This document shows positions 14,458-52,850 of a DNA stretch of 64,000 nucleotides, in pieces. The stretch spans positions 1,113,868 to 1,177,867 of the forward strand of contig NZ_CP066744.1 of NCBI RefSeq assembly GCF_016458825.1. The letters are read 5' to 3'. Each line of letters begins with the position of its first letter. The first letter of the stretch is position 1. Below the pieces are notes generated by a model. The model was not told where the DNA came from, searched no databases, and was given only the letters and a program-made list of their open reading frames with translations. The position numbers and the translations under genes were made by a program. Source of the DNA: Miniphocaeibacter halophilus. Lineage in GTDB: Bacteria; Bacillota; Clostridia; Tissierellales; Peptoniphilaceae.

Positions 14458-14540
14458 ATAATCACCTTTAAAAAATTTTACCATATAAAATCCTTAAAAG
14501 CAAACATATGTTCGGTAATAATAGTAATTTAAGTTAAAAA

Positions 14541-14571
14541 AAATAGTCCCAGAATTACTCTAGGACTATTT
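14541..14571 (-). terminator. Terminator of the ttcA-like/fprA operon
   Basis: AAATAGTCC (14541-14549) pairs with GGACTATTT (14563-14571). On the minus strand the hairpin is followed by a run of eight T, ten bases after the fprA stop. Confidence 0.85.
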
Positions 14572-14580
14572 GGATTATAT

Positions 14581-15780: not shown

Positions 15781-15800
15781 ATAATACCTCCAAAATATTA

Positions 15801-16676: not shown

Positions 16677-17048
16677 AAACTAATAATTGTTTTATTACAT
16701 AACTAAGTTGATTATATCATAGAGAATATTCAAATAATAGGACATAGGACTTATTTGCTTAATTAAAGAAAAAATTTACCTTACAATACTTAATTTAATA
16801 CATATAGTTAAATATCTTAAGAGAATAAAAACTGTTTAGCAATTTATTTTTTAATAATGGAAATATAGTTTTAAATGTAAGTTAGATTACAGTACTGGAT
16901 TTTAATTTTACTATTAGAGATAAAAAAATAACAATCTAGCCTTTTAAATGTTGAAAAATAGGGCTTTGGCTTTAAAATGAGTTTTAAGGTCTTTAAAATA
17001 AATATTAATACTAATCTATAGCTATAATAAATCGGTTTTTTGGAAAAT
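16677..17048. other. Intergenic stretch without recognised features
   Basis: This AT-rich stretch upstream of the TtcA-like gene contains no open frame with a ribosome site. A minus-strand promoter for the ttcA-like/fprA operon must lie in its first 60 bases, but no strong -35/-10 pair stands out. Confidence 0.5.
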
Positions 17049-32813: not shown

Positions 32814-33251
32814 GTTTATTACATAACGGATATTTATAATTTTCTTTTTTTAAAATTTTAAAATCTTCAGATTAATCAAATTTGAAATTCAAAGATAGAT
32901 TGTTAGAATATTTATTGTTAATTAATAAAAATGGCATTTTGAACTTTAAATCAATTATTCACATACTTTTTTATAGTATTGATTTTTCCTTTAAAAAACC
33001 GCATCACTTATGATACGGTTCTCCGTATCGGTTTGATATGCGATTTTTTAGTAATAAATCAAACTTGAGATTTAACTCTAAGGTTTGTAGCTGATTGAAA
33101 ACATATAATGATAATGAAGTTAAAATAATATCTGATATTATATTGTGTAAAATAAATATAGAATATATAATAAAGACATTGAAATTTTAAGGAACTTATA
33201 GGTATGTGATAAAATATAAAATAAATACTTATTTAATTTTGATTAAACAAA
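32814..33251. other. Intergenic junction between chromosome and island
   Basis: No gene is visible. The stretch holds the distal attachment-site copy (32993-33021), a nested hairpin CCGTATC/GATACGG around it, and the AT-rich leader of the restriction-modification gene. The chromosome side lies before 32993, the island side after 33021. Confidence 0.6.
32993..33021 (-). repeat. Distal attachment site, degenerate rlmH 3' end
   Basis: On the plus strand the site opens with AAAAAACCGCAT and closes with TTATGATACGGTTC. The rlmH-proximal copy at 50505-50534 shares the first 12 bases exactly and 13 of the last 14; only 3-4 bases between differ. On the minus strand it reads GGAGAACCGTATCATAAGTG, which encodes the RlmH C-terminal GEPYHK and stop. 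It is close to the recalled staphylococcal core GAAGCATATCATAA. Confidence 0.8.
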
Positions 33252-35123
33252 TTGAAAGATATTATAGAGTATAGAAATCATTTTAAGAAGAGGATTGAAA
33301 AAATAATGGATCGATATGAGATTATAAATAGAATTGGAGCAGAATTTTTAAAAAGTAATATAGAAAATGGGGAGTTTAGTTATGCTAAGGCTTTAAAAAA
33401 TATTGGGAAAAATCACATTGATTATATGTCTGATGACGCAAAAAGAAAATATAAAGATATTGATTTAAGGTTTGTTGAAGGCAATTTAACAATATTGGTA
33501 GAAACAAAACAACATATAACAAATGGAAATTTATTAGGAGATATGGAACAATTGCAACATTATGTTTATTTTGAGAAAGAACTAACAGGTAATAAAGTAA
33601 TTGCAATTTTAGCTGCTACCCAAACAAATGAAATAATGGTTTGGCAAGATGGTTCTGATATTATCGATGATGTTCATTATGATAGGTCTCAAAGAGTTAT
33701 CAAGTCAATGGAAGAGTATAAGAACATACATTTTGGCACAAGGAATGATAAAATTTCTCTGGTAGAAAATACCAATGAACTAAATGAACTTTTACACCAA
33801 TATGGAATTAATGAAGGAATCCGAAGTCAATTTGTTGGAACCTGTTTGCTAGCTCTAAAGTATGATTTAGCATATGATTATCCTAGGGTAACTAGTGGGC
33901 AAATTAGAGAGGGAATACAAGAAATTTTAGAGGATTTATTAGATGGTGATCTAAATAAAGCAAGAAAACTTGTGATTTTAAAAGATAATGTTATAGATTC
34001 CCAAGATGTGAGAGATTTAAAAGTGGATGAATTTCAGCATATTTTAAGAGATATTGAAAATAAAATTATACCTTACATTAATGAGAAAAGCACCATGGGT
34101 CAGGACTTATTAAATTTATTCTTCACTACTTTTAATAAGTATGTTGGTAAGGCAGATAAAAATCAAGCCTTCACTCCAGATCATATTGTTCATTTCATGT
34201 GCAATGTGATTGGCATAAACAGACATTCCATTGTACTTGATCCATGCTGTGGTAGTGGAGCTTTTTTAGTTAGAGCTATGACAGAGGCAATGGATGATTG
34301 CGATACTGATGAAGAAAGAGAGAATATAAAGAAGAATCAGATTTTTGGAATTGAATTTGAAGAGAAAGCATATGGTTTATCAACAACAAATATGCTCATA
34401 CATGGGGATGGTAATTCAAATGTATTGCAAGGTAGTTGTTTTGATTTATTAGATGATGTGGTTGAAAAAACAAAAATAAATACTATATTAATGAATCCAC
34501 CATATAATGCTCAAAGAAAACATAGCAATCCTAAATATGTAGAAACATGGAAAACGACCACTAAACAAGATCCTTCAAAAGGATTTCATTTTGTATATGA
34601 AGCTGCAAAAAAAATAAAGACTGGGAAATTAGCAGTTTTGTTACCAACGCAATGTGCTATAGGAAATTCTGGAGATGTTAAACTTTTTAAAAGAAAAATG
34701 TTAGAAGAACATACTTTGGATGCCGTTTTTTCATTGCCGATTGATATCTTTCATCCTGGAGCGAGTGCATCTGCTTGCTGCATGATTTTTAATCTGGGAA
34801 TGAGACATGAAAATTCACCTATTAAGGAAACTTTTTTTGGTTATTTTAAAGATGATGGGTATGAAAAAAGAAAGAATTTGGGACGAATGGAAAGAGAAGA
34901 TGGTTTATGGCGGAAAATTGAAGAAGAATGGCTAACATTATATTTTAATAGAGAAAGTAAAGCTGGAATGTCAGTTACTAAAAAAGTTAAAGCAAATGAT
35001 GAATGGTTAGCTGAAGCATATATGCAGACTGACTATGATAAACTAAGTTACAATGATTTTCAAAAAAATATAAATAATTATCTTTCATATTTAGTTAAAA
35101 TAGGTGAGATTTATGAAGAATAA
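33252..35123 (+). CDS. BcgI-like restriction-methylation subunit (nuclease fused to N6-adenine methyltransferase)
   Basis: The 623-residue product has an N-terminal nuclease-like segment with DIDLRF and, 11 residues later, VETKQ, a PD-(D/E)xK layout. A helical region follows, then an N6-adenine methyltransferase with motif I DPCCGSGAFL and motif IV NPPY. BcgI's A subunit has the same architecture and about the same size (near 637 residues). With the B-like partner it should cut and methylate DNA at a bipartite site. The TTG start at 33252 lacks a good ribosome site; ATG 33306, with AGAGG upstream, is an alternative. It overlaps the next gene by 20 bases. Confidence 0.85.
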   Translation: MKDIIEYRNHFKKRIEKIMDRYEIINRIGAEFLKSNIENGEFSYAKALKNIGKNHIDYMSDDAKRKYKDIDLRFVEGNLTILVETKQHITNGNLLGDMEQLQHYVYFEKELTGNKVIAILAATQTNEIMVWQDGSDIIDDVHYDRSQRVIKSMEEYKNIHFGTRNDKISLVENTNELNELLHQYGINEGIRSQFVGTCLLALKYDLAYDYPRVTSGQIREGIQEILEDLLDGDLNKARKLVILKDNVIDSQDVRDLKVDEFQHILRDIENKIIPYINEKSTMGQDLLNLFFTTFNKYVGKADKNQAFTPDHIVHFMCNVIGINRHSIVLDPCCGSGAFLVRAMTEAMDDCDTDEERENIKKNQIFGIEFEEKAYGLSTTNMLIHGDGNSNVLQGSCFDLLDDVVEKTKINTILMNPPYNAQRKHSNPKYVETWKTTTKQDPSKGFHFVYEAAKKIKTGKLAVLLPTQCAIGNSGDVKLFKRKMLEEHTLDAVFSLPIDIFHPGASASACCMIFNLGMRHENSPIKETFFGYFKDDGYEKRKNLGRMEREDGLWRKIEEEWLTLYFNRESKAGMSVTKKVKANDEWLAEAYMQTDYDKLSYNDFQKNINNYLSYLVKIGEIYEE

Positions 35124-36117
35124 AACTATTAAAGTAGGTAAATTTTGGGCACCAATATTGCTGAACGATTATTTTGATATAAAAGCAGGAAAGTATTATT
35201 ATCCTCATGAATATGGACATGGAGATACACCATATATTTCAGCAACTGTAGCTAATAATGGAGTGTCTGAATATATAGACTTAGATCCAGATTTCAAGGG
35301 TAATTGCATAACTACTGAAAAAATTTCTTGCCAAGCATTTTATCAAAAGTATGATTTCTGTGCAACAAGTGATATTAATGTTTTTATTCCTAAATTTGAA
35401 AATTTCAATGAATACATTGGTATTTTTATTGCTACCCTAATTAATTATGACCAAAATTATAGATGGAATTATGGTAGACAATGTCGTGTCGGTGATAGCA
35501 AAAAGATAAATGTCATGATGCCTATTACGAGTAATGGAAATCCAAACTGGCAGTTTATGGAAAACTATATTAAGACGTTAAATTACAAAAGAATAACTAC
35601 TAAAAATAAATATGACTTTGATAAAATTTACAGTAAAAAATATAAAAAATTTAAGTTAAAAGATTTATTTAGTAATATATATAAAGGTTATCCACATGTA
35701 AAAGTGGGTTTAGTAAAAAAAATGTTGAATAGTAAAAATGCAATACCATTAGTTACAAGGACAGCTGAAAATAATGGTGTTGACTGTTATGTCAGCATTG
35801 ATCAAGCAGAGAAAATAGAGAGTGGTAATGCAATAACTATTGGAGATACAACAGCAACATTATTTTATCAGCCAAAACAATTTATAACAGGAGACCATAT
35901 GGTGGTGTGTAGAGCTGATTGGTTAAATCAGTTTACAGGAATTTATATAAAAACTCTAATTGATTTAGAGAAATACAGATATAGTTATGGAAGGGCATTT
36001 AAACTAAAATTAATAAAAAACACAGAAGTAATTTTACCCGTGGATGATAAAGGTGCCCCTGATTGGATTTTTATTGAGAGCTATATTAAATCCATTCCCT
36101 ATGGAGATAGAATTTAA
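35104..36117 (+). CDS. BcgI-B/HsdS-like DNA specificity subunit
   Basis: This 337-residue protein is an internal duplication of two target-recognition domains: VGKFWAPILLNDYFDIKAG... and KYKKFKLKDLFSNIYKG..., each followed by segments such as NNGVSEYI or NNGVDCYV and ending in paired MENYIKT/IESYIKS helices. BcgI-B is about 341 residues with the same plan. It supplies sequence recognition for the nuclease-methyltransferase encoded just upstream, with which it overlaps by 20 bases. A terminator follows. Confidence 0.85.
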   Translation: MRFMKNKTIKVGKFWAPILLNDYFDIKAGKYYYPHEYGHGDTPYISATVANNGVSEYIDLDPDFKGNCITTEKISCQAFYQKYDFCATSDINVFIPKFENFNEYIGIFIATLINYDQNYRWNYGRQCRVGDSKKINVMMPITSNGNPNWQFMENYIKTLNYKRITTKNKYDFDKIYSKKYKKFKLKDLFSNIYKGYPHVKVGLVKKMLNSKNAIPLVTRTAENNGVDCYVSIDQAEKIESGNAITIGDTTATLFYQPKQFITGDHMVVCRADWLNQFTGIYIKTLIDLEKYRYSYGRAFKLKLIKNTEVILPVDDKGAPDWIFIESYIKSIPYGDRI

Positions 36118-37576: not shown

Positions 37577-37682
37577 CTGTAGCTAATTTTATTTAATTAT
37601 TTTGAAAGACTTATGTCAAGAACAAAAGCGAAGCGACTCTTGACCTATGGCTTTCAAAATAATACCATAGCTATGCTACAGA
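37577..37682. repeat. Nested inverted repeats downstream of the IS transposase
   Basis: Three pairs nest inside each other: CTGTAGC/GCTACAG (37577-37583, 37676-37682), ATTTTGAAAG/CTTTCAAAAT (37599-37608, 37651-37660) and GTCAAGA/TCTTGAC (37615-37621, 37638-37644). Together they form a long stem at the 3' end of OrfB. The structure may be an RNA stabiliser or terminator for the IS. Confidence 0.55.
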
Positions 37683-38510
37683 TAATTGTTTTCTATATTC
37701 TACTGGACTCAACCATCCAAATCTTTCTTTTATCCTTAGTTCATTATAGTATTTTATATATTTTCTTATTGCTGTTTCCAATTCCTTATAACTATAATAT
37801 ATTTTTCCATAATACATTTCTTGCTTCATTATTCCAAAGAAATTTTCTATTGGTGAGTTGTCTAAACAATTACCTTTTCTAGACATACTTTGTATTATTC
37901 CATTTCCCCTTAGCTCTTTTACATAGGCTTTCATCTGATACGCCCAACCTTGATCTGAATGAAATGTTCTTCTATATTTACAATCAGACGTTATTTTAAT
38001 AGTTTCTTTTAAGGAAGCCATTATACTCTCTGCTGATGGTTTTTCAGATATTCCATAACTTAATATTTCCAGGTTACATAAATCCATAAATGGATCAAAA
38101 TACAACTTTTTAATTTGAAGATTGCCATTTTTATCACGCTCATAGTATTTAAATTCCGTTGTATCTGTTGTGATTTTTTGATGTATTACACTGGTGTTAA
38201 ATCGTCTATTTAGTTTGTTTTTTGCTATTTTACCAACTTTACCTTTGTATGAACTATATTTTCTACTTTTTCTAGTAAATGACATTACTTGAAGTTTAAG
38301 TTTTTGTACAAGTTTTTGTACAAGTCTTTGCACCTTCTTCTTATTTATCTTAAATCCTAATTTTTTAAGTTCACCATAAATTCTTCTATATCCAAAGTTT
38401 TCATGGTCTTCTCTTATCTTTAAGATTTCTTCTTCTATTTTTTTATCCGGATTATCTCTATTAAATCTTTTTTGCCAATACATATATGTTGATTTGGGAA
38501 ATTTAAGCAC
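37671..38510 (-). CDS. IS3-family transposase OrfB (DDE integrase)
   Basis: The 279-residue frame from its first ATG contains the DDE catalytic core of IS3 OrfB: TTDTTEF, FHSDQGWAYQ and the glutamate region NSPIENFFGIMKQEMY. The frame is open further upstream through EQIARIIHNLRGSFKLKDIL and joins OrfA by a -1 shift at the A AAA AAG heptamer (about 38573-38580). The working product is therefore the OrfAB fusion. Confidence 0.9.
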   Translation of the reverse strand: MLKFPKSTYMYWQKRFNRDNPDKKIEEEILKIREDHENFGYRRIYGELKKLGFKINKKKVQRLVQKLVQKLKLQVMSFTRKSRKYSSYKGKVGKIAKNKLNRRFNTSVIHQKITTDTTEFKYYERDKNGNLQIKKLYFDPFMDLCNLEILSYGISEKPSAESIMASLKETIKITSDCKYRRTFHSDQGWAYQMKAYVKELRGNGIIQSMSRKGNCLDNSPIENFFGIMKQEMYYGKIYYSYKELETAIRKYIKYYNELRIKERFGWLSPVEYRKQLSVA

Positions 38511-38554
38511 TGCAAGAATATCTTTTAATTTAAATGATCCTCGGAGATTGTGTA

Positions 38555-39091
38555 TTATTCTTGCGATTTGTTCTTTTTTTGACTTTCCTTTAGACGCAAT
38601 CTCCTCAATTCTTTTAAATATTCATTCTCTATTTTCAGAGCTAAAACTTGTTGTTCTAGTTCTTTGATTCTGTCAGCATCATTTTTACTTATCTGAGAAT
38701 TTTTATTGTTTTTATTGTCTTTAGCTTTCATTTTAGAGGGTCTCCCTTGTTGTTTTACGAGACCTTCTTTTCCCAATTTTCTAAACTTTGATACCCACCC
38801 TGCTATTAATGATGGATTATTTATTCCGAAATTGGTTGCTAGTTCATGATAAGAGGTCTCTGTAGTTAGGTAAGACTCTATCATATTTAATTTAAAATCT
38901 AAAGTATATTTATCATTTTGTCGTTTTCTTAATAACCCTGTTTCTCCAAATTCTTTATATGCTTGTATCCAGGTACATACTGTCGTAAAACTTGGAATAT
39001 TATATTTTTTAGCTAGATACCGATATCCTCCCAAGCCATCTAAATATTCCTCTACTACTTTTAGTTTAAATTCAAAACTATATTTCGCCAT
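38555..39091 (-). CDS. IS3-family transposase OrfA
   Basis: This 178-residue protein has two helix-turn-helix repeats (MAKYSFEFKLKVVEEYL... and ...KYTLDFKLNMIESYL) that bind IS ends, then a leucine-zipper-like coiled coil (LEQQVLALKIENEYLKEL). The stop follows a run of A where -1 frameshifting to OrfB is expected. Confidence 0.88.
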   Translation of the reverse strand: MAKYSFEFKLKVVEEYLDGLGGYRYLAKKYNIPSFTTVCTWIQAYKEFGETGLLRKRQNDKYTLDFKLNMIESYLTTETSYHELATNFGINNPSLIAGWVSKFRKLGKEGLVKQQGRPSKMKAKDNKNNKNSQISKNDADRIKELEQQVLALKIENEYLKELRRLRLKESQKKNKSQE

Positions 39092-39185
39092 TGAAAAACC
39101 GACCTCCTAATCGTTAGATTTTTGGTCTAACTTTTGGGGGTCGGTACATAAATTCCTATCTCTTTTATTAAAAGTTAGTTTATAT

Positions 39186-39692
39186 TTAATTAGTATATTT
39201 CTCTAAAACCCAGTTATTTCTAATCTTAGGATTTAGAGGATGATACATTTTTTCTTTCTTTTTATCTGTTAAATAGTAGATATCTGATTTTATATTTTCA
39301 AATAGTTTAATAATTTCCAAAGTTCTACTTCTTACAGTTCTATTTGTCTCGGACAAAGTACCCCAAGCAAAGATTATTTTAGAACATAACTTAGCTTGTT
39401 CTACTAAAATATTGTCATTTTCATTGAAGGCTTCTTTACTTATATTTTTTATATCATTACTAGGGTATAGATTCGTATATATAATAGAGCCAACTTCATA
39501 CTTGGCAAGTTCATTAAATATGATCCTAGTAGTCATATCCTCATTTAAGATAGAGCTGTTACTTGGATATAGGGTAATAACCATATATTTATCCTTTTTA
39601 TCATTCCAAGTTTTGCTAAGCAGATACCTGTATTTGTTATTTTTACTTTTAAATATTTCTGTTTGAATATTAATATTTTCTGTAACAATCAT
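39186..39692 (-). CDS. DUF1643 family protein of the SCC-like core
   Basis: This 168-residue protein matches DUF1643 by YRYLLSKTWND, MVITLYPSNSS, IIYTNLYPSND and IIFAWGTLSE. The family's function is unknown, but DUF1643 proteins of about this length (near 167 residues) lie downstream of ccr genes in staphylococcal cassette chromosomes. Here it is second after the recombinase. AAGGAG precedes the ATG. Confidence 0.85.
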   Translation of the reverse strand: MIVTENINIQTEIFKSKNNKYRYLLSKTWNDKKDKYMVITLYPSNSSILNEDMTTRIIFNELAKYEVGSIIYTNLYPSNDIKNISKEAFNENDNILVEQAKLCSKIIFAWGTLSETNRTVRSRTLEIIKLFENIKSDIYYLTDKKKEKMYHPLNPKIRNNWVLEKYTN

Positions 39693-39758: not shown

Positions 39759-40052
39759 CTATTCATTATAGGAATCTCCAAATTTGTAATAGACTAAATC
39801 CCAGTCTTTTAATAGATCCATTAGCATTACTTCGTTTGTTTCGATGGTATTAATATAGTAAAGATAGTATTCTCCATATAAATAGGCATGAGTCATAACC
39901 TTAGTTGGCAAAACTATATTTTTTGGAAATAACTCTTCATCTAATTCATTAGACTCAAACTCTATTGATTCACAGGCAATATATTCAATATCTATGTTCA
40001 TTTTTAAGTATTCTTCTAAAAAATTATGTGCTGTTTTTAAATCGTATTTCAT
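39759..40052 (-). CDS. Candidate SaUGI-like uracil-DNA-glycosylase inhibitor
   Basis: This 97-residue, strongly acidic protein has CESIE at residues 27-31. As I recall them, the staphylococcal inhibitor SaUGI (DUF950) has CESIE near residue 25 and the phage inhibitor UGI has an essential ESI in its first edge strand. A THAY segment about 24 residues later corresponds to TYTYY in SaUGI and HTAY in UGI, and NEVMLM resembles ENVMLL in UGI. In SCC elements SaUGI is encoded right after ccr, exactly as here. UDG inhibitors mimic DNA and block uracil removal during replication. GGAGGT precedes the ATG. The call rests on motif, size, charge and position, not on a database search. Confidence 0.5.
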   Translation of the reverse strand: MKYDLKTAHNFLEEYLKMNIDIEYIACESIEFESNELDEELFPKNIVLPTKVMTHAYLYGEYYLYYINTIETNEVMLMDLLKDWDLVYYKFGDSYNE

Positions 40053-40124: not shown

Positions 40125-41735
40125 TTAGGGCATTAAAAAAGAAGCATCTTTTTTAGATGCTCCCTTTTTAATATCTAGATAATTTAATAGTTCATCGTTA
40201 ATTACTATATTTATAGAGTCGATCTCTCTATTTTTGTTAATAGTAATTTCTGAGATCAAAAGATGAATCAGTTTCTTTTGTTGTCTTATATCATTACTTT
40301 TTAATAGCAACTCTCCAAAATGCTCAATTATATTTTGTATATATTTATATGAAATTTCTTTAACTTTTCTATTGGATACTATTTTTAGCAATTTAGATTT
40401 TTCTTTTTCTAGTTCGAATTTACTAGGTGAATATTTCTCTTTTCGTAGCTTAAATTCTTCATTAGAGATGAAACCATCTTCTAATGCATTAAATAGATTA
40501 TCTAGTTTGTTGTTAAGATTTTTTATTTTCAAATCCACATTTTCAAGTCTTTCTATTAAAGGTTCCATGTTTGCATTTTGTTCAGAATTTATATTTTCGA
40601 CAATATCCTTTATTATTTTAGGTTTGTTTATTAGAGATTCTATTTTTTTAAACACACATCTATTAGCTATATCAACTCTTATCCCATTTGAGTTACAAAC
40701 AGTAGTTCCTTTGTTCTTCCAATTACCACATACATAGTAGTCTGTTTTCTTTTTAGTACCATCCTTTAGTTTATTAATAGTTCTGGACATTACCATACCA
40801 GCACCACATACAGGACATTTCAATACACCAGTAAGAGCAAATTTCCCATCATATATTCTAGCAGGTTTTCCTCTTCTATTTTTATTAATGGTTTGTACTT
40901 TATCCCACGTGTCTATATCAATGATAGCTTCATGTTTTCCGTCTACTATAATAGGATCTGGATTTATATTCCTACGTCTTTTTTCAGACCAGTTTTGCAA
41001 GACGTTGTATCGGATTTTACCGATATATAGAGGATTTAATATAATATCTTTTATGGAATTAACTCCAAACGCATTACCTCTTTTAGTTTTATAGCGTAAC
41101 CTATTTAACTTGTTACAGATGGCCTTGTATCCTTTGCCATTAGCATATTCCTTAAATATGAGCCTTACTATATTCGCTTCATCTTCATTGATTACAAGTT
41201 TGGTTTTCCCTTTAGGATTATTAGGATCAACTGGTACTATATCATATCCTAAAACCCTTCCACCACACCATTCACCGTTTTCAGCTTTGGCTAGCATGCC
41301 CATCTTAATGTTCTCAGCTATAGTGTCCCTCTCAAACTCACCAATTGTGGCAATCATATGGAGTAACATTTTTCCAGTAGGAGTATTATTTTCAAAATTT
41401 TCAGTTAGTGATTTAAAATAGATGTTAAAATCTTCTAGGATATCTACAATCCTTATAAGATCGGCTAATTTTCTACTAATCCTATTGACTTGCCAAACAA
41501 CAACCATATCAAACTTTTTATTTTTCGCATCAATTAATAACTTATTTAAGGCTGGTCTATCCTTAATATTTTTACCACTAATACCCCTGTCAGAATAGCA
41601 TTCATATATTTCGTAGCCATTCTCCTTACACCATTGTATTAATAACCTTTCTTGCTCATCTATGCTGTAACCTTCTTCAGCCTGTTCATTAGTACTTACT
41701 CTACAATATATTGCAATTCTTTTATTTAAATTCAT
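40125..41735 (-). CDS. Ccr-like large serine recombinase
   Basis: This 536-residue large serine recombinase has an N-terminal catalytic domain AIYCRVSTNEQAEEGYSI (nucleophile in VSTNEQ) with YSDRGISGK and IGEFERDTIAENI, a recombinase domain (NPLYIGKIRYN), a zinc ribbon (LKCPVCGAGMVMS... YYVCGNWKNKGTTVC) and a coiled C-terminal region. Long stretches recall staphylococcal CcrB/CcrC: WSEKRRRNINPDPIIVDGKH against WSEKRRKGLNDKPIIAEGKH, and KLKDGTKKKTDYYVC. Length fits CcrB (about 542) or CcrC (about 558). It should catalyse insertion at rlmH. A single recombinase without partner is the CcrC arrangement. AAGGAGG precedes the ATG. Confidence 0.92.
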   Translation of the reverse strand: MNLNKRIAIYCRVSTNEQAEEGYSIDEQERLLIQWCKENGYEIYECYSDRGISGKNIKDRPALNKLLIDAKNKKFDMVVVWQVNRISRKLADLIRIVDILEDFNIYFKSLTENFENNTPTGKMLLHMIATIGEFERDTIAENIKMGMLAKAENGEWCGGRVLGYDIVPVDPNNPKGKTKLVINEDEANIVRLIFKEYANGKGYKAICNKLNRLRYKTKRGNAFGVNSIKDIILNPLYIGKIRYNVLQNWSEKRRRNINPDPIIVDGKHEAIIDIDTWDKVQTINKNRRGKPARIYDGKFALTGVLKCPVCGAGMVMSRTINKLKDGTKKKTDYYVCGNWKNKGTTVCNSNGIRVDIANRCVFKKIESLINKPKIIKDIVENINSEQNANMEPLIERLENVDLKIKNLNNKLDNLFNALEDGFISNEEFKLRKEKYSPSKFELEKEKSKLLKIVSNRKVKEISYKYIQNIIEHFGELLLKSNDIRQQKKLIHLLISEITINKNREIDSINIVINDELLNYLDIKKGASKKDASFLMP

Positions 41736-41892: not shown

Positions 41893-42885
41893 TTAAGCTG
41901 CAAGATCATCGTTGTTATCGTTGTTTTTTGGATTATAACTTATAGTTATATTACGGCTACGATTTTTGTAATTATGCTCTATTTCAATTCCTATGCTTCT
42001 AAAACTATTTGACAATCTATTTAAAACTCTAGTTAGTTTATTTGGGGTTTTTGGTAAATCTCCAAGGTTTGTTAAGTTATTTTTAGCAGTAAATTGTCCT
42101 AATTCTTCCAATAGTCTAGTGGCAGTACCTTCAAAATGTTTTTTTGTTTGTATAAACTTTATAAATACCGGCACTATTGCATTTTCTTCAAGAGAATAAG
42201 TTTTCATTTTATCTATATTGTTTTTGTATATTCGATCAAATTCTTTTTCTCCTATTCCTAATGTTTTAGCTATAATACAACCCCAAATGTAAAAATCAGC
42301 CATTCTTGGTGTTTCAAATAATTTATAATCTTGATTTTCATAGGTTTCAAGACAATAAGACAACGTTATAAAAATTTCCGATAAAATGGTAGGTTTTAGT
42401 TTTTCAAAATTAGAATCTAACTCAGATATAGGAATTCTATCTTTGGCTTTTATTCTTCCTAAAGTATAAACAATGGATCTATCAAGTAAATCGGCTCTAG
42501 ATGATGCTATATTTATTCCATTTATATATATTATTGAAGAAATATCCATAATATATTCTTCATTATCTGTATAAAGTTTACGTTTCTTGTAGGTCCCACT
42601 AGTAGAAGACATACACAGTATGTTAGCAGCATCCTTTCCAACATAATCTAAATTGTCTAAGCACGTGACATAATTATTAGCTAATGATAATAACAAGCTA
42701 TCGTTATTTAAAACTGTAGTAAGAAGATCATTGGAGGGATCTATTAAGCTTTTTGCATATTTCATTATTGTTGATTTACTACCACCTTGCTCACCAGATA
42801 GTATTTCGATGGTGTGGTTAATATTAGGAATAAACTTGCTAACTAAGCTGATTATAAATAACTTAAATTCGTCTTCATATTTAAA
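41893..42885 (-). CDS. Primase-helicase, helicase half (out of frame with the primase half)
   Basis: The frame is open from 42885, just after a TAA at 42886-42888, to 41893. The first ATG is at 42765, but coding sequence clearly starts earlier: YEDEFKLFIISLVSKF and then the Walker A motif SGEQGGSKST lie upstream of it. Further on come CLDNLDYVG (Walker B-like) and DLLDRSIVYTLGRI, the arginine-finger region of phage and plasmid SF3/D5-like helicases. A C-terminal winged-helix-like part ends the protein. It should unwind island DNA. Without a frameshift correction it is not fused to the primase and may not be translated. Confidence 0.75.
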   Translation of the reverse strand, partial: FKYEDEFKLFIISLVSKFIPNINHTIEILSGEQGGSKSTIMKYAKSLIDPSNDLLTTVLNNDSLLLSLANNYVTCLDNLDYVGKDAANILCMSSTSGTYKKRKLYTDNEEYIMDISSIIYINGINIASSRADLLDRSIVYTLGRIKAKDRIPISELDSNFEKLKPTILSEIFITLSYCLETYENQDYKLFETPRMADFYIWGCIIAKTLGIGEKEFDRIYKNNIDKMKTYSLEENAIVPVFIKFIQTKKHFEGTATRLLEELGQFTAKNNLTNLGDLPKTPNKLTRVLNRLSNSFRSIGIEIEHNYKNRSRNITISYNPKNNDNNDDLAA

Positions 42886-44354
42886 TTAAAAAATGGTCTA
42901 AGTAATTCCATTAAATCAGTTTTAGAATCTTCACTACTTGGTGCTACTTGTTCTCCTATATTACTACGATTAAAAAGTATTTCTTTGTCTGAAGAAGGTT
43001 TAATATGAAATCCATCCTTACTAATTATTACAATTTCTTTATTGGAGTTACCTAAGTCATAATATATAGCATCATTACTAACACATATACGTTTCTTTAA
43101 ACTATACTGATTTTCATAGCAAAAAGCAGAAAAGTGATCTTGTATTGACGAAATAGTATATGAGTTAGGAGATTTACCAAATTTATTGTAGATGATTCTT
43201 ATAATAGCTTTTTTTAATTGTGAGCTATAAATAGGAAAAACTTCATTAATATCATCAGTACTAATAAACATATATTCACTATTAAAATCATCAACAAAGC
43301 ATTTAGAATGTTCTTTAATATGTTGAATATATTCATTAAGGGTTCCAGTTTTTTCCTTTAAGCTACTTCTATTAAAACTAAGAATTTTATAATCCTTAAA
43401 ATCTAATGATTTAAATAGGGTGATAATGTTCTCCATGCTACATTTATCGTGGTGACATCCTGCACTTATAGAACCATCAGGGTAACTTATTAAATAAGAG
43501 CCATTGTCAATATCATGTCCATTATTCCATGGACATTGGGAAAGTACATAAACTTTCCCATAATCCATTTCTTTTATACTACTAACGTCTACATTATAGT
43601 TAGCAATAAAATCATCAATATTACCATTAGTAAACCTAGCTTTTTTAGTAGAAACAGCTTTAATATCAACTTTTTTAGAATTGATATAATCATCTATAGT
43701 TTCAATGTCCAATATTTTAATATTTTCAGGTATCTTATCTAAAAAAGACTCCCGATGAGGTCTTTCCTTTGTATTTTTACCTTTATGATTTACAGTTCCA
43801 TAAAGTCGGCAAATCCTAGATGGATTATATACACTGGTATCTACTGTTACCTTAGAATTACTGTATTCTTCATCAAGTACAGACAATAAAGATTTAACTC
43901 TAGTTACATTTGCAGTATTGTTTTTAAAATTGACTTTGTATAATAAATGGTAACCGTTACCGCTACACGCTACTATAGGTGAAGGAAAGCCAAATAATGA
44001 CAATCCTTCTTCTATTTTATTAGCTAATTTTTTGCTACTCTCTAACTCTTCATCAGTACTAGAGGTAGTGCTAGTTCTTATAGGATCTAAATCCACCAAA
44101 ATCCAGTTATAAAACAAAATATCCTTATCAGAAATAGTAGATTTACATCCTTCAAGCTTATTTGTCACGTTAATATTATTTTCATTGATGCTCTGTAGCG
44201 AAAAATACACGTTCTTATCTAGAAGGGGAGAAAGTTCCTCTTCTAGAATTCTCATATCGTTAAATACACCTGATAATATTATTTCTCCTAAAATCCTTAT
44301 TGCTATTAATTTGCTTTTTCCTAATACTTTTAAATTTTCAATTATTGTTTTCAT
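42852..44354 (-). CDS. Primase-helicase, archaeo-eukaryotic-type primase half
   Basis: The 500-residue frame has the three primase-polymerase motifs: LVDLDPIR (D88, D90), SGNGYHLLYK (H136) and TVDTSVYNPSRICRLYG (D172). A zinc-binding module follows with C274, H280, C300 and C305 (CHHDKC). The reading frame ends at 42852 in residues that no longer fit (NMKTNLSYL) because the helicase domain continues in another frame. The intact gene would cover 44354-41893 and about 820 residues. In SCC elements the analogous gene, cch, encodes a self-loading MCM-like helicase at the same position. Confidence 0.8.
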   Translation of the reverse strand: MKTIIENLKVLGKSKLIAIRILGEIILSGVFNDMRILEEELSPLLDKNVYFSLQSINENNINVTNKLEGCKSTISDKDILFYNWILVDLDPIRTSTTSSTDEELESSKKLANKIEEGLSLFGFPSPIVACSGNGYHLLYKVNFKNNTANVTRVKSLLSVLDEEYSNSKVTVDTSVYNPSRICRLYGTVNHKGKNTKERPHRESFLDKIPENIKILDIETIDDYINSKKVDIKAVSTKKARFTNGNIDDFIANYNVDVSSIKEMDYGKVYVLSQCPWNNGHDIDNGSYLISYPDGSISAGCHHDKCSMENIITLFKSLDFKDYKILSFNRSSLKEKTGTLNEYIQHIKEHSKCFVDDFNSEYMFISTDDINEVFPIYSSQLKKAIIRIIYNKFGKSPNSYTISSIQDHFSAFCYENQYSLKKRICVSNDAIYYDLGNSNKEIVIISKDGFHIKPSSDKEILFNRSNIGEQVAPSSEDSKTDLMELLRPFFNLNMKTNLSYL

Positions 44355-45990: not shown

Positions 45991-46178
45991 TTAAATATCC
46001 TCCAAATTAATTAAATAACTTAAATATATTATATATTCAAATGATGAATAAAGTATAAGATAATGATATATTATTAAGGATGAAAAAATATTTAAGATAT
46101 TTTAAGTTATTTTTCAAAAATTAAGCTAAAAAATAAGTGAAATTTAACTTGGACATTTATTATATAATAGGAGAAAAC

Positions 46179-47702
46179 ATGGAAAGTAAAAATATTAAAA
46201 ACCCATTAGATAAAAGGATTTTAAAATTACAAAAAGATTTTGATAATGCTTTTGATAATAAAGATAAGAAAAAAATAAATGAGTTAATAAATAAAGCTAC
46301 AAATTCATTTAAAGATAAAGACTTAAATGAACTATCGGAAGCTTCACTTTATTATTCTATTGCTAATGGTTATAATGATTTAATTACACTATCTAATAGT
46401 GAAATTGATGAAAAAATTATAGAAAAAATTTTGTATTTTCATAGAATGAGTATAAACATTATAGATGAATATAATTATATAGATGAGGAAGAACCGTATT
46501 TTATAGGATTGATGCGAAGTCTATACACTAACTATGCAAATATATTAAGTACTATAGGTAGAATAATAGAAGCGATAAAATATTTTAAAATAGTACTTAC
46601 GCTAGATGATAATTTTGCTATGGCTATGGGGAATTTAGGAATATCATACATGACTTATTCTAATATTATATGTGATAAAGGACATAAAAATATTCTTAAT
46701 TATTTTTCATACCATTACCTTAAAAATTCAATTAAAAATATAAATGAGGAAGTAGACAAAGGTGCAAAGGAGATATTCATGTATTATTTAGCCTTATATA
46801 ATACTGAATATATTGAAAAGTTTTTAAGTCAAAAACTAGATATACCAAGATATTCATTAGGAAGGTCTAATGAAGAAAAAAATTATCGAAACTGGTGTTT
46901 AGAAAATAACTTGTTTTTAAATCCTATGAATGACTTACCAATAAAAGAAAATTTTATTGCCAGGGACATAGTACATTTACCAGACATTACTATGCCAGTA
47001 AAGGAAAATATCAATTATAAGTTTCATATAATGTATAATAATTTAAAGGAAGAATTTATAAGCTCAAGATTTTTATATTATGAAGCTTTGGAGCCTAACT
47101 ATAAAACTCATTATTCAGATAGGGATGTTTATCTAATCAACAATTGGAATAATGCTATATATTCAGTACGGATAGAAAAATTAAAAAACTCATTTAAGTT
47201 ACTATACTCTATTCTTGATAAATCAGCTTTTTTTCTAAATGAGTATTATAATCTTAATATTAATGAAAATGAAATTACATTTAGAAATTTATGGGAGAAC
47301 AGTAAAGAAGGCAGTCTAAATATATTACCATATAGAAACAATTATGGATTGAATGCTATTAGATGGTTGTACAAAGACATTTTTGTTAATTTACATAAAT
47401 CTCCTAACCCACATTCTAAAACATTACATACATTAAGAAATGCTTTAGAGCATAAATATATAGTCGTTACGATTAGTAACTTAACTTTAAGTGAAGATTT
47501 AGAGAAAAAGGAAAATATATGGTATATATCTGAAAGAAAACTTCAGAACTACACATTACAATTATTACATATGGTTAGAGAATTACTTATTTATTTAGTA
47601 ATTAGTGTAAATATCACTGAAAATGAAAAAAAGGAAATTTACAAAAGTGAATTTATACCATTAATTAACGCAGATAATTATGACGATGAATGGAAAATAT
47701 AA
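46179..47702 (+). CDS. TPR and LA2681-like HEPN-domain protein
   Basis: From ATG 46179 (AGGAG seven bases upstream; the frame opens at 46137 without such a site) the product has 507 residues. The N-terminal half is made of helical repeats (ANILSTIGRIIEAIKYFKIV, MGNLGISYMTYSN), as in TPRs. The C-terminal half resembles the LA2681-like HEPN family: FLYYEALEPNYKTHYSDRDV, IEKLKNSFKLLYSILDKSAFFLNEYYNL and finally LRNALEHKY, the RxxxxH motif of HEPN ribonucleases. It probably cleaves RNA when triggered, as in abortive-infection systems. The divergent neighbour is broken. Confidence 0.78.
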   Translation: MESKNIKNPLDKRILKLQKDFDNAFDNKDKKKINELINKATNSFKDKDLNELSEASLYYSIANGYNDLITLSNSEIDEKIIEKILYFHRMSINIIDEYNYIDEEEPYFIGLMRSLYTNYANILSTIGRIIEAIKYFKIVLTLDDNFAMAMGNLGISYMTYSNIICDKGHKNILNYFSYHYLKNSIKNINEEVDKGAKEIFMYYLALYNTEYIEKFLSQKLDIPRYSLGRSNEEKNYRNWCLENNLFLNPMNDLPIKENFIARDIVHLPDITMPVKENINYKFHIMYNNLKEEFISSRFLYYEALEPNYKTHYSDRDVYLINNWNNAIYSVRIEKLKNSFKLLYSILDKSAFFLNEYYNLNINENEITFRNLWENSKEGSLNILPYRNNYGLNAIRWLYKDIFVNLHKSPNPHSKTLHTLRNALEHKYIVVTISNLTLSEDLEKKENIWYISERKLQNYTLQLLHMVRELLIYLVISVNITENEKKEIYKSEFIPLINADNYDDEWKI

Positions 47703-48975: not shown

Positions 48976-49452
48976 TTGGATATTAAAAAAGCTTTTACAA
49001 GTCGAGATAATAACAGAGAAGAAAGAATGTATGGAATTTTTGCAAGTCTCTTTGTTTTTCAGAATAGGCTACAAACTTTATTTGATAATTTTGATTCAAG
49101 CATTACCTTAAAACAATTTATGCTTCTTATTTTGATAAAGATGTCGAAGCCCAATGAAACCTTTACTAATTATGGGAAGATGTTAGGATGTTCAAGACAG
49201 AATATTAAGAAGTTAGTTAACTTATTAGAAAAGAATAATTATATAGAACTTAGAATTGATGACTTGGATAAAAGGAAGAATTCAATTAAAATTACTAAAA
49301 AGACAGAGGATTTTTTTCTTAATAATTCTGACCTACACTTAGAAAAACTAGAGTTGTTATTTAAAGATTACACGGATGAAGAAATTAAACAATTTTATTC
49401 AATGATGGGAAAATTATATGATGGAATTGAGAGATTAGAAGGAACGAAATGA
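48976..49452 (+). CDS. MarR-family transcriptional regulator
   Basis: This 158-residue winged-helix protein has the recognition region LGCSRQNIKKLVNLLEKNNYIEL and the wing DDLDKRKNSIKIT, with the characteristic DxDxR pattern. The start is a TTG with AGGAGG eight bases upstream. It overlaps the next gene by 4 bases. A perfect dyad surrounds its promoter, so autoregulation is likely. Confidence 0.9.
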   Translation: MDIKKAFTSRDNNREERMYGIFASLFVFQNRLQTLFDNFDSSITLKQFMLLILIKMSKPNETFTNYGKMLGCSRQNIKKLVNLLEKNNYIELRIDDLDKRKNSIKITKKTEDFFLNNSDLHLEKLELLFKDYTDEEIKQFYSMMGKLYDGIERLEGTK

Positions 49453-50306
49453 GAAAGAGGTTGATGGGTACTGTGGGAATAATAATCGGGTGTGTATTAA
49501 TAATTCTAGCTAGTGTTATAGTTTATTTTTATATTCCATATTCTCCTCTTAATTCTGAATATAAGGATATTTGTCAGAAAATCGAAGAGGGAAAAAGACA
49601 AAATAGTGAAGTGTTATTGAATGATAATATTGAATCACTGCCAAGTTTGATTCAAAAGTATATTGTTACAAATGGATATATTGGAAGTCCAATAGTTAAT
49701 TCAATGCAAATTGAATTTTTAGATGCTGATTTTATATTAAACAGGGGAGATTCTCCAATTAAGATTAATTACTATCAAATTAATGAAGCTTCGGAACCAA
49801 ATAGGATTGCATTAATAGACACCTCCATGTATGGAATCCCATTTCAAGGTTTAGATAAATATATGTATGGAGATGGAACAATGAGAGGAGTTTTAGCAAA
49901 AAATATAACATTGTTTAACCAGGGGGGAAAAGAGTTTAATATTTCTAGTTTGATAACTTATTTATCCGAGTCAATATTAATGCCATCAATCTTGATAAAT
50001 GAAAGTTTCCAATGGGAAGAAATTGATGATTATAATGTAAAGGTTTCATTAAAATATTATGATGAAGAAGTATCTGGAGTTTTTACATTTGATGATTCTT
50101 GGAAAGTTATTTCTTTTAAAACAAATCAAAGAACTATGATATCAACAGATGGAGAAATAAACAAAATACCTTGGGAAGTTAAATACTTGAATTATAAAAA
50201 AGACAAGAGTATCATTAAACCAACAGAAATACAGGCAATATGGCATTATAATGATCAAAGTTCTATATATTTTGATGGAATCATTAATGATATGATATAT
50301 AATTAA
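49449..50306 (+). CDS. DUF6544-like membrane-anchored protein
   Basis: This 285-residue protein has one N-terminal membrane helix (GTVGIIIGCVLIILASVIVY) and an outside domain. LPSLIQKYIVTNGYIGSP, MYGIPFQGLDKYMYGDG and the late FDDSWKVISFKTN stretch fit the DUF6544 family, whose function is unknown. It overlaps the MarR gene by 4 bases and is presumably its target. It is the last cargo gene before the rlmH junction. Confidence 0.65.
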   Translation: MRKRLMGTVGIIIGCVLIILASVIVYFYIPYSPLNSEYKDICQKIEEGKRQNSEVLLNDNIESLPSLIQKYIVTNGYIGSPIVNSMQIEFLDADFILNRGDSPIKINYYQINEASEPNRIALIDTSMYGIPFQGLDKYMYGDGTMRGVLAKNITLFNQGGKEFNISSLITYLSESILMPSILINESFQWEEIDDYNVKVSLKYYDEEVSGVFTFDDSWKVISFKTNQRTMISTDGEINKIPWEVKYLNYKKDKSIIKPTEIQAIWHYNDQSSIYFDGIINDMIYN

Positions 50307-50450
50307 TAAACTAAAGGAGAAAAATAGTAGTGACGAATATTAGATTTTAAATTGTAGTAGTGAGAGAGGTTAAGTTAGTGGAGATAGCGGAGATAAAAAA
50401 GTTAAAACCTTTTTATGAATATTATGCTGAATGAAAAAGAGATAAATTAG

Positions 50451-50476
50451 AAGCGGACTGTTTAAGTCCGCTTTTC
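50451..50476 (+). terminator. Terminator of the MarR/DUF6544 operon
   Basis: AAGCGGACT (50451-50459) pairs with AGTCCGCTT (50465-50473); TTT follows. It lies just inside the island, next to rlmH. Confidence 0.8.
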
Positions 50477-50504
50477 TTAAATTCATAGTTGTTAAATAAA
50501 AAAC

Positions 50505-50534
50505 AAAAAACCGCATTTATTTATGGTACGGTTC
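50505..50534 (-). repeat. rlmH-proximal attachment site
   Basis: The site covers the last codons of rlmH (EPYHK, stop TAA) and runs into TGCGGTTTTTT outside the gene. It is the direct-repeat partner of 32993-33021. Together they define an insertion of about 17.5 kb that keeps rlmH intact. Confidence 0.8.
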
Positions 50535-50993
50535 ATTGTTTGCTATTTTAAAAGAGCGGTATATTTGCTCCAATAATATTAATCTCATCAACTGATGAGG
50601 AAAGGTCATTTTTGAAAAGGATAGTTTCATATTGGACAATGATTTTATTTCACTGGATAGGCCATGGGAAGACCCTATTATAAAGGTAAAGGAATTGTAG
50701 CCCTTTGACTTTTCTAATTCTAGTTTTTGACTAAATTCAGTACTGGTAAGATTTTTGCCTTCTATTTCCAAGGTTATAACAAAATCCTTCTGTCCGATTT
50801 TATTTTTTATTTTTTCCCCTTCTTCTTTTAAAGCTTTTTCTATTATTTTTTTAGAGTTTTCATTTACTTTAATTTCTGGTATTTCAATTATTTGTACTTT
50901 TGCGTATTTTTGTATTCTTTTTATATATTCTGCTATTCCATCTTTTAAATATTTTTCTTTAATGTTTCCTACTGAAATTATATTTATATTCAT
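50517..50993 (-). CDS. rlmH: 23S rRNA (pseudouridine-1915-N3)-methyltransferase RlmH
   Basis: This 158-residue SPOUT methyltransferase has FIIGSSHGLS and SFSKMTFPHQLMRLILLEQIYR and ends NEPYHK, the invariant tail that binds RNA and SAM. It methylates pseudouridine 1915 in 23S rRNA. Its start overlaps the yycJ stop. The 3' end of the gene is the attachment site of the SCC-like island, yet the reading frame is complete. Staphylococcal cassettes use the same gene (orfX). Confidence 0.96.
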   Translation of the reverse strand: MNINIISVGNIKEKYLKDGIAEYIKRIQKYAKVQIIEIPEIKVNENSKKIIEKALKEEGEKIKNKIGQKDFVITLEIEGKNLTSTEFSQKLELEKSKGYNSFTFIIGSSHGLSSEIKSLSNMKLSFSKMTFPHQLMRLILLEQIYRSFKIANNEPYHK

Positions 50994-51793
50994 TATGGCA
51001 CCAGAATAATTTCGTTACTTACATTATATCTATTGGCCAATGTTAAATTAATATCTCTACTTGTATCTAAACCTAGGGATTGTAAATATTTGTTAACTGT
51101 GGAGAACGCCAGTTCTTCTGTATTATTTTCTTCACTTAAGTGAGCTAGGATTACATTTTCTTGATTTCCCGTTAATATTTCACCTAAAGTAAAGGCACAG
51201 TCCTCATTTGAAAGATGACCTTTTACTGAAAGTATTCTTTTTTTAAGATTGTAGGAATAACTACCGTTTTTTAGCATATCAACATCATGATTAGCCTCTA
51301 TTAAATAAACATCTGAACCTGCAATTAGTTTTTTCATTCTTTCATTTACTATTCCGGTATCAGTTAGAATTGTTATTTTTTTATTATCCTTATTAATTAT
51401 ATATCCACAACTATTTGCAGAGTCATGGTAAGTACTAAAAGGATGGATATCAATATCCCTTAAGGAAAAATCAATATCATTTTTAAATACTATTAAATTT
51501 TCTTCTTTTATTTTGCCTACTTTTTTTAGCATAGCTAGCCAGGTTTTTTCATTTGCAAGTATTGGTATGTTATACCTTCTACTAAGAATACCAGCACCTT
51601 TAATATGGTCTGTGTGTTCATGTGTAATTAATATTGCATCTATTGAGTCCGGTAATACATTAGCATTCATCAACAATTTTTCTAATTGCTTACCGCTAAA
51701 ACCTGCGTCTATTAGCAAACGTGTCTTTTCTGTTTCTACATACATTGCATTGCCTGAAGATCCACTAGACAAAGAACAAAACTTTATACTCAT
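50993..51793 (-). CDS. YycJ/WalJ-type metallo-beta-lactamase-fold hydrolase
   Basis: From ATG 51793 (GGAG six bases upstream) the product has 266 residues. It has the metal-binding motif THEHTDHIKG and other MBL signatures (DAGFSGKQLEKLL, SCGYIINKDNKKITILTDTG, GHLSNEDC, LAHLSEENN). YycJ is an exonuclease-like MBL protein linked to DNA repair and division in Firmicutes. Pairing with rlmH near the origin is common. The longer frame to 51805 starts in the ribosome site region. Confidence 0.9.
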   Translation of the reverse strand: MSIKFCSLSSGSSGNAMYVETEKTRLLIDAGFSGKQLEKLLMNANVLPDSIDAILITHEHTDHIKGAGILSRRYNIPILANEKTWLAMLKKVGKIKEENLIVFKNDIDFSLRDIDIHPFSTYHDSANSCGYIINKDNKKITILTDTGIVNERMKKLIAGSDVYLIEANHDVDMLKNGSYSYNLKKRILSVKGHLSNEDCAFTLGEILTGNQENVILAHLSEENNTEELAFSTVNKYLQSLGLDTSRDINLTLANRYNVSNEIILVP

Positions 51794-51933
51794 AACCCTC
51801 TCCATTTCTATCAGTACTCAATTATATACTATATGAAAAATTTTTTAAAGTCCGGCAGATTAATTTTAATTTATTAGATACAGATTATTTGATAAAATAT
51901 ACAATAACAATATATATTAAGGAAGGAAATAAA

Positions 51934-52464
51934 ATGATAATAGAAAAGTCTTTTTGTGTGGAAAAAAATTTAAAAAAAATTCTCAATATGGATTACCATA
52001 ATATTGAAAAATCTTTAGTGAGTATATTAATTAAAAATAATATAAGAATTTCCACTGCAGAATCTATAACAGGTGGTTTAATTGCCAGTCGTATTGTAAA
52101 TATTGCAGGTGCAAGTGATATTTTTGAAGAAGGTTATGTTACCTATAGTGACAGGATAAAAAATAGAGTTCTGGGAGTAAAAAAAGAAACTTTAAATAAA
52201 TACACTGCAGTTAGTGAAGAAGTATGTTATGAAATGTTAATTAATTTAAAAAATATTACTAAAGCCGACTCTATAATTGTAACTACAGGATATGCAGGAC
52301 CAGGAGAAAATGCTGGACTGGCATTTGTAGGAATAAACCTTTTCAATTTTTTTATTATCAAAAAGATAAATGTAAGAGGAAATAGAAATGAAATTAGAAA
52401 AAAAATAGCAAATATTGCTTTAAATGAACTATATATAAGGTGTAGAAATCAACATAATATATAA
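51934..52464 (+). CDS. CinA C-terminal-domain protein (nicotinamide-nucleotide amidase-like)
   Basis: From ATG 51934 (AAGGAAGG upstream) the product has 176 residues. The last 150 are the CinA/PncC domain: ISTAESITGGLIASRIVNIAGAS, GYVTYSDRIKNRVLGV, AVSEEVCYEM, TTGYAGPG. This domain deamidates nicotinamide mononucleotide to nicotinate mononucleotide. The N-terminal MoCF domain of full CinA is absent. The N-terminal 25 residues are not part of the domain. The C-terminus looks slightly diverged. Confidence 0.87.
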   Translation: MIIEKSFCVEKNLKKILNMDYHNIEKSLVSILIKNNIRISTAESITGGLIASRIVNIAGASDIFEEGYVTYSDRIKNRVLGVKKETLNKYTAVSEEVCYEMLINLKNITKADSIIVTTGYAGPGENAGLAFVGINLFNFFIIKKINVRGNRNEIRKKIANIALNELYIRCRNQHNI

Positions 52465-52472
52465 ATGTTTTT

Positions 52473-52518
52473 AAGTAAAAAATAATAGAAAAATTTTATC
52501 TTATTTTTTACTTTTTTT
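52473..52518 (+). terminator. Terminator of the CinA-like gene
   Basis: AAGTAAAAAATAA (52473-52485) pairs with TTATTTTTTACTT (52501-52513), then a T-run follows. Confidence 0.75.
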
Positions 52519-52762
52519 CAAATTTTGTAAAAAATATGGTGAAAACGTAATCATAAAATGTTGAAATTTCAAGTTTCAAGAAAAGGCACTAGAAAAATAT
52601 TTAAAAATATTATTTGAAATGATTATTTTTTCATTAAAAAATTAAGTGTTTTCACAAACAATAGTTATAACAATAATGGAAACTTTGAATATATTTAAAT
52701 TATTTACTGGAAATTTAAATATATATAGTTAAAAGATACACAATAAATTAACGAAATGGTCA

Positions 52763-52791
52763 TTTACCTAAAAGTTATAATGTAGTATAAT
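52763..52791 (+). promoter_or_regulatory. Promoter of the first opp operon
   Basis: TTTACC (52763-52768), 17 bases and TATAAT (52786-52791) lie 60 bases before oppA. The remaining leader (52519-52762) is AT-rich, and I see no riboswitch or T-box in it. Confidence 0.6.
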
Positions 52792-52850
52792 AGTTTACAG
52801 TACATAAAATTATATGTATAAATATAAATTTTATAGGGGGAAAATATTGT

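Follow-up and report, generated by a model that had tools for sequence, protein, structure and literature searches.

The analysed window is a 64,000-nucleotide stretch of the low-GC genome of Miniphocaeibacter halophilus (23-36% GC in window blocks). It contains an intact open reading frame on the minus strand (39759..40052) that starts with ATG, encodes a protein of 97 residues and occurs once in the genome. Upstream of this candidate gene, on the same strand, lies a gene for a large serine recombinase (40125..41735), whose stop is 73 bases from the candidate's start. The 536-aa recombinase is CcrB-like: it matches NCBIfam SCCmet_CcrB with 411.8 bits, under the cut-off of 900, and its best relative, at locus L114, shares 53% identity, followed by one from Caloramator (L115) with 46%. 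Downstream of the candidate lies a gene for a DUF1643 protein (39186..39692, minus; PF07799, 88.3 bits), which also occurs in SCC elements, as in a staphylococcal example. An insertion sequence with transposase ORFs (37671..39091, minus) adjoins the DUF1643 gene. The end of this insertion sequence (39100-39155) resembles sites on plasmids, mostly of Enterococcus, with 81-89% similarity among the matches inspected.

The SCC target gene rlmH is located at 50517..50993 (minus; PF02590, 187.5 bits). A repeat search found an att-like copy at its 3' end (50520..50537, minus; NEPYHK) and a second copy, the probable far end of a cassette, at 33007..33024 (minus; GEPYHK). A search with the att-like pattern gave three matches against 0.16 expected, the third being at 5162. 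An SCC-like element should have a ccr-type recombinase, sit at the rlmH 3' end and carry a copy of the last codons of that gene at its far end, and all of these are met. The stretch between rlmH and 33007-33024 is thus likely an SCC-like cassette of ~17.5 kb at the rlmH 3' end, its excision being inferred.

The cargo comprises an N6 DNA methylase with an HsdS-like specificity protein (33252..36117, plus; PF02384, PF01420) and an LA2681-like HEPN protein (46137..47702, plus; PF18733, 165.6 bits), the latter a possible cassette-borne defence gene. A probable cassette primase-helicase, assigned from frame reading and weak PHROGs matches, is spread over two ORFs in different frames (41893..44354, minus). 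Its upstream ORF weakly resembles the PHROGs DnaB helicase (E 0.0028) and primase (E 0.018) and stops before a P-loop-like GEQGGSKST, which sits in the second frame. The split may reflect real decay or a sequencing error, both being possible; the cassette as a whole appears partly decayed.

The genes that follow ccr in a staphylococcal SCC region are, in order, SAUGI, DUF960, DUF1643 and JAB; therefore, the candidate sits in the SAUGI/DUF960 slot. The placement expected of a SAUGI-type gene in a ccr complex is met by the order ccr, candidate, DUF1643, together with rlmH and the two att-like repeats. In a genome of the same genus (G088, locus L257), the counterpart of window 16.7-12.5 kb begins no more than ~900 bases after rlmH; the matches of this genome cover window 12501-16679 and 50516-53279, and a single short, weak match to 23 kb lies in between. 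Because rlmH lies so near the 16.7-12.5 kb equivalent in G088, the stretch from 16.7 to 50.5 kb appears to be an accretion zone larger than one cassette. In another relative (G089, locus L258, window 49261-51880), ~1.5 kb of other DNA lies between rlmH and the 50.4-49.3 kb segment.

The initial annotation, made from sequence alone, had described the product of this ORF as an acidic 97-residue protein behind a ccr recombinase, and as a probable SAUGI/UGI-type inhibitor whose low overall identity might escape standard searches. The ORF held, on the minus strand; so did the acidity (pI 4.28; 20 D/E vs 7 K/R) and the position, with the CcrB-like gene directly upstream on the same strand. The expected silence of standard searches held as well. 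No match at E<=1 was found in Pfam, NCBIfam or PHROGs, and the candidate alone found no relative in plasmids and phages (tblastn) or in viral contigs and genome contigs. Among 130 genomes of its family it matched only itself, and among 249 genomes of its order 16 matched at E<=0.05, namely its own and 15 weakly (best 9.9e-4). The host also encodes a presumable target, a 224-aa Ung with GQDPYH and HPSPLS. These two are motifs of family-1 Ung.

A family of small acidic proteins on related cassettes

Relatives were reached through a scan for relatives of the recombinase, from which the best 80 of 343 related loci were taken. Near one related recombinase, beside a RadC/JAB gene and near DUF960, a 102-aa Niallia nealsonii protein was spotted by eye, with ESTELYQDEIDE at the place of the candidate's ESIEFESNELDE. 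This protein was first picked for its resemblance to the candidate; when 6421 ORFs were ranked without bias by their match to the candidate, it took fifth place, which is not significant. As a pair, the two sequences found relatives in Mesobacillus (E 6e-20) and Oceanobacillus (E 2e-16) among 39 genomes searched. The three relatives from Niallia, Mesobacillus and Oceanobacillus, used as the query, gave 24 matches in 21 of the 193 genomes of a Bacillus-type family, including the two seed genomes (Mesobacillus and Niallia). We refer to this unannotated family of ~100-aa acidic proteins, carried on cassettes of Bacillus-type bacteria, as F. The candidate's genome belongs to the same phylum as the F-bearing Bacillus-type family and to another class; in that class an F match was found in 2 of 316 genomes, its own (in the query) and one more, where the preceding gene resembles a RadC/JAB protein by eye.

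Our results indicate that the candidate very likely belongs to F. An F profile of 21 sequences built without it (21 of the 24 matches; L220, L228 and L231 left out) found it with E 7.1e-8 in 6553 ORFs, and hhalign of the 21 sequences against the candidate gave a probability of 90.9% (E 1.1e-6). A second profile of 22 sequences, again without the candidate, consisted of the 21 relatives among the 22 rows of alignment A6 plus G1004, without Mesobacillus, L220 and L228; it returned E 6.8e-8 in 6553 ORFs. Removal of the Niallia protein and a close relative still left E 1.4e-7, and the candidate's F score was reached by none of 5000 shuffles. The match is significant only with the larger family. 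BLASTP aligned nothing between the candidate and the Niallia protein, and hhalign of the candidate with just the first three relatives reached 3.2%.

The candidate shares 15-29% identity with F members. In A6, every one of the 21 relatives has E28 and D38, and all but one (20 of 21) have E36; these three residues are all present in the candidate. It departs from the family at N35, a place held by D or E in all 22 relatives scanned, and at Tyr62, where all 21 A6 relatives have Trp. Existing libraries do not recognise F: the 22 A6 rows had no NCBIfam match at E<=0.01, and none of 10 F rows matched SAUGI in Pfam at E<=1, two of them matching unrelated families (best 0.0014, under the cut-off). 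F sequences and alignments found nothing in viral contigs, nor did tblastn of F proteins in plasmids and phages.

The gene neighbourhoods of F are those of cassettes. Of the 24 matches, 21 were examined for context, with L119 standing for Niallia and L231 lying within L246, together with the Oceanobacillus gene; L220 and L228 were excluded. Across 21 regions, RadC/JAB was found in 19, DUF960 in 12, ccr in 8, and DUF1643, DUF927 and rlmH in 5 each; in four regions JAB, DUF1643, F and DUF960 are consecutive. Each region spans at most 20 kb, so that a missing gene is no proof of absence; two come from one genome, and the Niallia region was picked via its ccr. The idea that the candidate is itself a DUF960 protein was rejected, DUF960 being a separate gene in F loci (12 of 21 regions). 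The Oceanobacillus copy (L199, L251) is frameshifted and lies beside a short JAB piece. JAB-DUF960 pairs also occur on ccr loci of Caloramator (L115, 3263-4019) and Clostridium (L116, 1098-1957), where neither the F nor the SAUGI profile picked up a member.

Predicted fold and sequence links to Ugi and SAUGI

A structure was predicted with AF2 from the candidate and the Niallia row, without Ugi or SAUGI rows or templates. The best model had a pLDDT of 81.6 and a pTM of 0.70 (five-model mean pLDDT 81.6, 79.8, 72.6, 46.8 and 44.7), with pLDDT >=70 in 81 of 97 residues and 69 for residues 41-50. It is predicted to contain a helix (2-15) and strands at 26-33, 51-59, 62-69, 75-82 and 85-91, the second helix being only 34-36. 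The Ugi/SAUGI fold, defined as helix, strand, helix and four antiparallel strands, is met by this model. A caveat is that AF2 training included Ugi/SAUGI structures.

Foldseek alone found nothing for this model at E<=0.001 in PDB or BFVD, and none of the 50 BFVD rows shown was named Ugi, many being nameless. In VIA, a second look at Foldseek's top 1000, rows 1-14 were all Ugi/SAUGI structures, with Z from 9.6 to 6.2 and six at Z 8 or more. The best row was 1udi_I (Z 9.6, rmsd 2.4, 79 aligned of 83), followed by 1lqm (9.5), 1ugh (9.0), 2j8x (8.7), 8aim (Ugi-2) and 6lyv (SAUGI) (both 8.2), 5ayr (7.2), 3wdg (7.1), 6lyj (7.0), 1eui and 1lqg (both 6.8), and 2kcd, a SAUGI relative, 8ain and 9iro (all 6.2). 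The first unrelated row was OspA (Z 6.1, 58 aligned). Rows 1-8 lie at least 1.0 Z above it, whereas rows 9-14 (Z 7.0-6.2) tie with it but align 67-92 residues. An earlier single-sequence model reached only pLDDT 54.5; with it Foldseek gave nothing significant, and VIA put Ugi 1udi_I at rank 8 (Z 3.9), tied with unrelated rows.

The predicted strands allow the proposed motif likenesses to be judged. The candidate carries CESIE at residues 27-31, THAY at 54-57 and NEVMLM at 73-78. The comparison of CESIE with ESI held, CESIE lying in predicted strand 1 (26-33; codons 39954..39977, minus, located from A6, column counts and DSSP of the model) like ESI in Ugi; the comparison of THAY with HTAY held too, THAY lying in predicted strand 2 (51-59) like HTAY in Ugi. 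The proposed counterpart of ENVMLL failed and NEVMLM was rejected for this part: it lies at predicted strand 4 (75-82), and ENVMLL of Ugi is strand 3, so that the likeness is probably coincidental. A fold unlike SAUGI/UGI would have refuted the initial annotation, and this test was passed by the VIA rows, Foldseek alone giving nothing significant. The Ugi/SAUGI-type identity it proposed is supported by cassette-family membership and the predicted fold, while Ung inhibition is inferred.

By profile, SAUGI is the closest outside family to F. In the F search of 6553 ORFs, the nine rows after the candidate were all staphylococcal SAUGIs (E 0.026-0.13), and SAUGIs made up 12 of the first 16 such rows; a search of 37830 six-frame stretches again placed nine SAUGIs right after the sole member. 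The SAUGI rows after the candidate all belong to the clade that has CEALE or a similar sequence at strand 1; being mutually close relatives, they count as few independent events. The nine SAUGI ORFs of the CESIE-type clade were not among the inspected rows of the F search. With hhalign, F against SAUGI scored 22.0, above the 21.1 that column shuffles reached at most; with the candidate added, these values were 24.0 and 17.9. In each case 0 of 150 shuffles reached the score, but the probability was only 9-17%. F against phage Ugi did not exceed shuffles (121 of 150 reached the score; 28 of 150 with the candidate added). Among PDB sequences, SeUGI came top for A6 (E 0.31) and fifth for A5 (E 0.62), neither significant alone.

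Direct links from the candidate are weaker. With hhalign it gave 0.4% against SAUGI and 0.3% against Ugi, hence no direct significant match. We do not file it as a member of PF06106, because it matches no Pfam family at E<=1 (a staphylococcal control scored 221.8 bits). PF06106 was over cut-off in 0 of 130 genomes of the candidate's family, with weak matches (E<=0.1, best 0.0013) in 21, and was found in 0 of 398 genomes of the phylum at E<=1e-4, where control genomes were silent too. A staphylococcal SAUGI profile ranked the candidate 14th of 6529 non-SAUGI ORFs, and 25th with MCUGI1 added, which is suggestive only. A phage Ugi profile alone listed neither the candidate nor the Niallia protein at E<=20, its first 12 rows holding no F member. 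A profile of the first three relatives placed the candidate fourth (E 0.13); addition of phage Ugi made it the best non-member (E 0.052), and further addition of SAUGI dropped it to row 82 (E 14).

The strand-1 Glu of the ESI motif is identical in Ugi, Ugi-2, SAUGI and MCUGI1 (PMC10303552, Figure 6 legend), and the candidate keeps it, as E28-S29-I30 in predicted strand 26-33. A Ugi signature derived from the phage proteins, E-x6-[ED][ED]-x-[ED][ED], extends from this Glu (PMC10303552). At the invariant Glu of F, 19 of 22 members carry the long signature, compared with 59 of 11000 shuffled F sequences, and 22 of 22 carry the short form E-x6-[ED][ED]. Among 1386 control ORFs of 80-130 aa, with the pattern at residues 15-35, the short form occurred in 20 and the long in none; 15 of 233 acidic controls had the short form. 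In the candidate, the acidic segment NELDEEL (residues 35-41; codons 39930..39950, minus) lies in the register of the motif according to A5/A6 and the pattern scan. E28-x6-N35-E36 half meets it, with N35 occupying one of the four acidic positions, and E31-x6-DE meets it. The motif is not strictly defining, because only 4 of 19 SAUGI rows (18 staphylococcal and MCUGI1) have the short form at the key Glu. Motifs alone are likewise insufficient as evidence, because two ESI-bearing proteins of phage phiR1-37, heuristically chosen, were without inhibition in assays (PMC10303552).

Proposed role, rival explanations and relation to known systems

Taken together, the cassette-borne family membership, the predicted Ugi/SAUGI fold, the shared strand-1 Glu, all from computation, and the host Ung suggest that the candidate is likely (probability about 0.83) a divergent DNA mimic of the Ugi/SAUGI type on an SCC-like cassette. 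The fold, predicted by a model, the family and the slot are computed; Ung binding, UDG inhibition and the role are inferred by analogy. In Ugi and SAUGI, the strand-1 Glu and the acids following it mimic DNA in the Ung cleft, and a pocket traps a leucine (PMC10303552). We propose that strand 1 (ESI) and the following acidic segment of the candidate would likewise enter the DNA cleft of Ung, and that a hydrophobic pocket of the sheet, itself inferred, would trap the minor-groove-reading, intercalating Leu. Ung would thus be blocked stoichiometrically during replication or transfer of the excised cassette, and because of this proposed block uracil in cassette DNA would not be converted into abasic sites and breaks. 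SaUGI has been proposed to shield newly made SCC DNA from the host UDG (PMC7581432), and by analogy protection of newly made cassette DNA is the most likely role of the candidate.

One alternative is that the protein is a DNA mimic with the Ugi/SAUGI fold and another target, which could be a different DNA-binding protein, for instance a defence enzyme of restriction or another kind, or a cassette protein like RadC/JAB. A fold does not prove a target, 19 of 21 F regions have a RadC/JAB gene, and the candidate's own cassette has methylase and HsdS genes. However, F keeps the Glu common to Ugi, Ugi-2, SAUGI and MCUGI1 (PMC10303552) with the acidic motif behind it, and we regard another target as unlikely. 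It is equally conceivable on paper that the candidate is a decayed, inactive Ugi-type protein in a disintegrating cassette: the primase-helicase is split over frames, an insertion sequence adjoins DUF1643, N35 replaces an acid and Tyr62 the Trp conserved in A6 relatives, and the Oceanobacillus relative is frameshifted. Against this, the ORF is intact, E28, E36, D38, L41 and the LP pair are kept, 81 of 97 model residues have a pLDDT of 70 or more, and verified SAUGI variants are also diverse (25-42% identity; PMC10303552), so decay seems improbable.

Least credible is a chance likeness, in which a small, acidic but unrelated protein, such as one resembling DUF960, fills the same slot. The low direct identity and the failure of motif-chosen proteins in assays (PMC10303552) speak for it, but it is largely refuted by the F E-value of 7e-8 with 0 of 5000 shuffles, by the first 14 structural rows, all Ugi/SAUGI, and by DUF960 having a gene of its own in 12 of the 21 F regions.

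Among known systems, the candidate shares with SAUGI (PF06106, formerly DUF950; staphylococcal SCC) the element type and the neighbours ccr, DUF960, DUF1643 and JAB, a similar predicted fold (6lyv_B, Z 8.2, 89 aligned) and an ESI-type strand 1. It differs in being unrecognised by PF06106, in its length (97 aa vs 112-117 in staphylococci), in a gap of some four residues that the alignment opens ahead of the acidic segment, and in its non-staphylococcal host. Ugi of Bacillus phages PBS1/AR9 and Ugi-2 of BpSp provide the best structural row (1udi_I), a similar length and E-S-I with acidic residues in the same ungapped register, but have no significant profile similarity and are phage genes, whereas the candidate is a cassette gene. 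The verified SAUGI variants SYUGI and JMUGI, from Salinicoccus and Jeotgalicoccus, lie beside radC, as do many F genes (PMC10303552). SCC-like Bacillota islands with Pol-SSB pairs, mostly downstream of rlmH, are the same kind of island (PMC10061031), and the Niallia nealsonii record NZ_PISE01000015 of that study is the contig holding the first F relative (L119); the study concerns primases, and its main text never mentions 'uracil' or 'UGI'.

The Ugi-fold inhibitors verified in PMC10303552 come from Bacillus jumbo phages and Staphylococcaceae SCC-type loci, and of the further inhibitors sought there by motif none worked. In the literature searched, with partial coverage of titles and abstract openings, we found no publication that describes a Ugi-type gene on cassettes of Bacillaceae or of other non-staphylococcal bacteria. 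F and the candidate would form a further sequence clade with a model-predicted Ugi/SAUGI fold, suggesting that UDG inhibition, here inferred, recurs on SCC-type cassettes beyond staphylococci. In a bolder reading, which we also consider likely, this unannotated clade spans SCC-type cassettes of Bacillus-type bacteria and of genomes in another class of Bacillota. If so, UDG inhibition would be an old core function of the whole element class, tied to replication after excision, and not a staphylococcal speciality.

F would support the idea that SCC elements replicate with DNA sensitive to uracil repair. Its occurrence on related cassettes in other bacteria offers many natural variants for testing, and additional sequences for uses in which UDG inhibition serves as a tool, for instance beside base editors. 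The analysis also illustrates that gene context and an alignment of two sequences can expose a fold missed by profile libraries. On the staphylococcal side, a 92-aa ORF upstream of ccr (L131, 3166-3444) and two alike are weak matches to the SAUGI profile (E 0.02-0.08).
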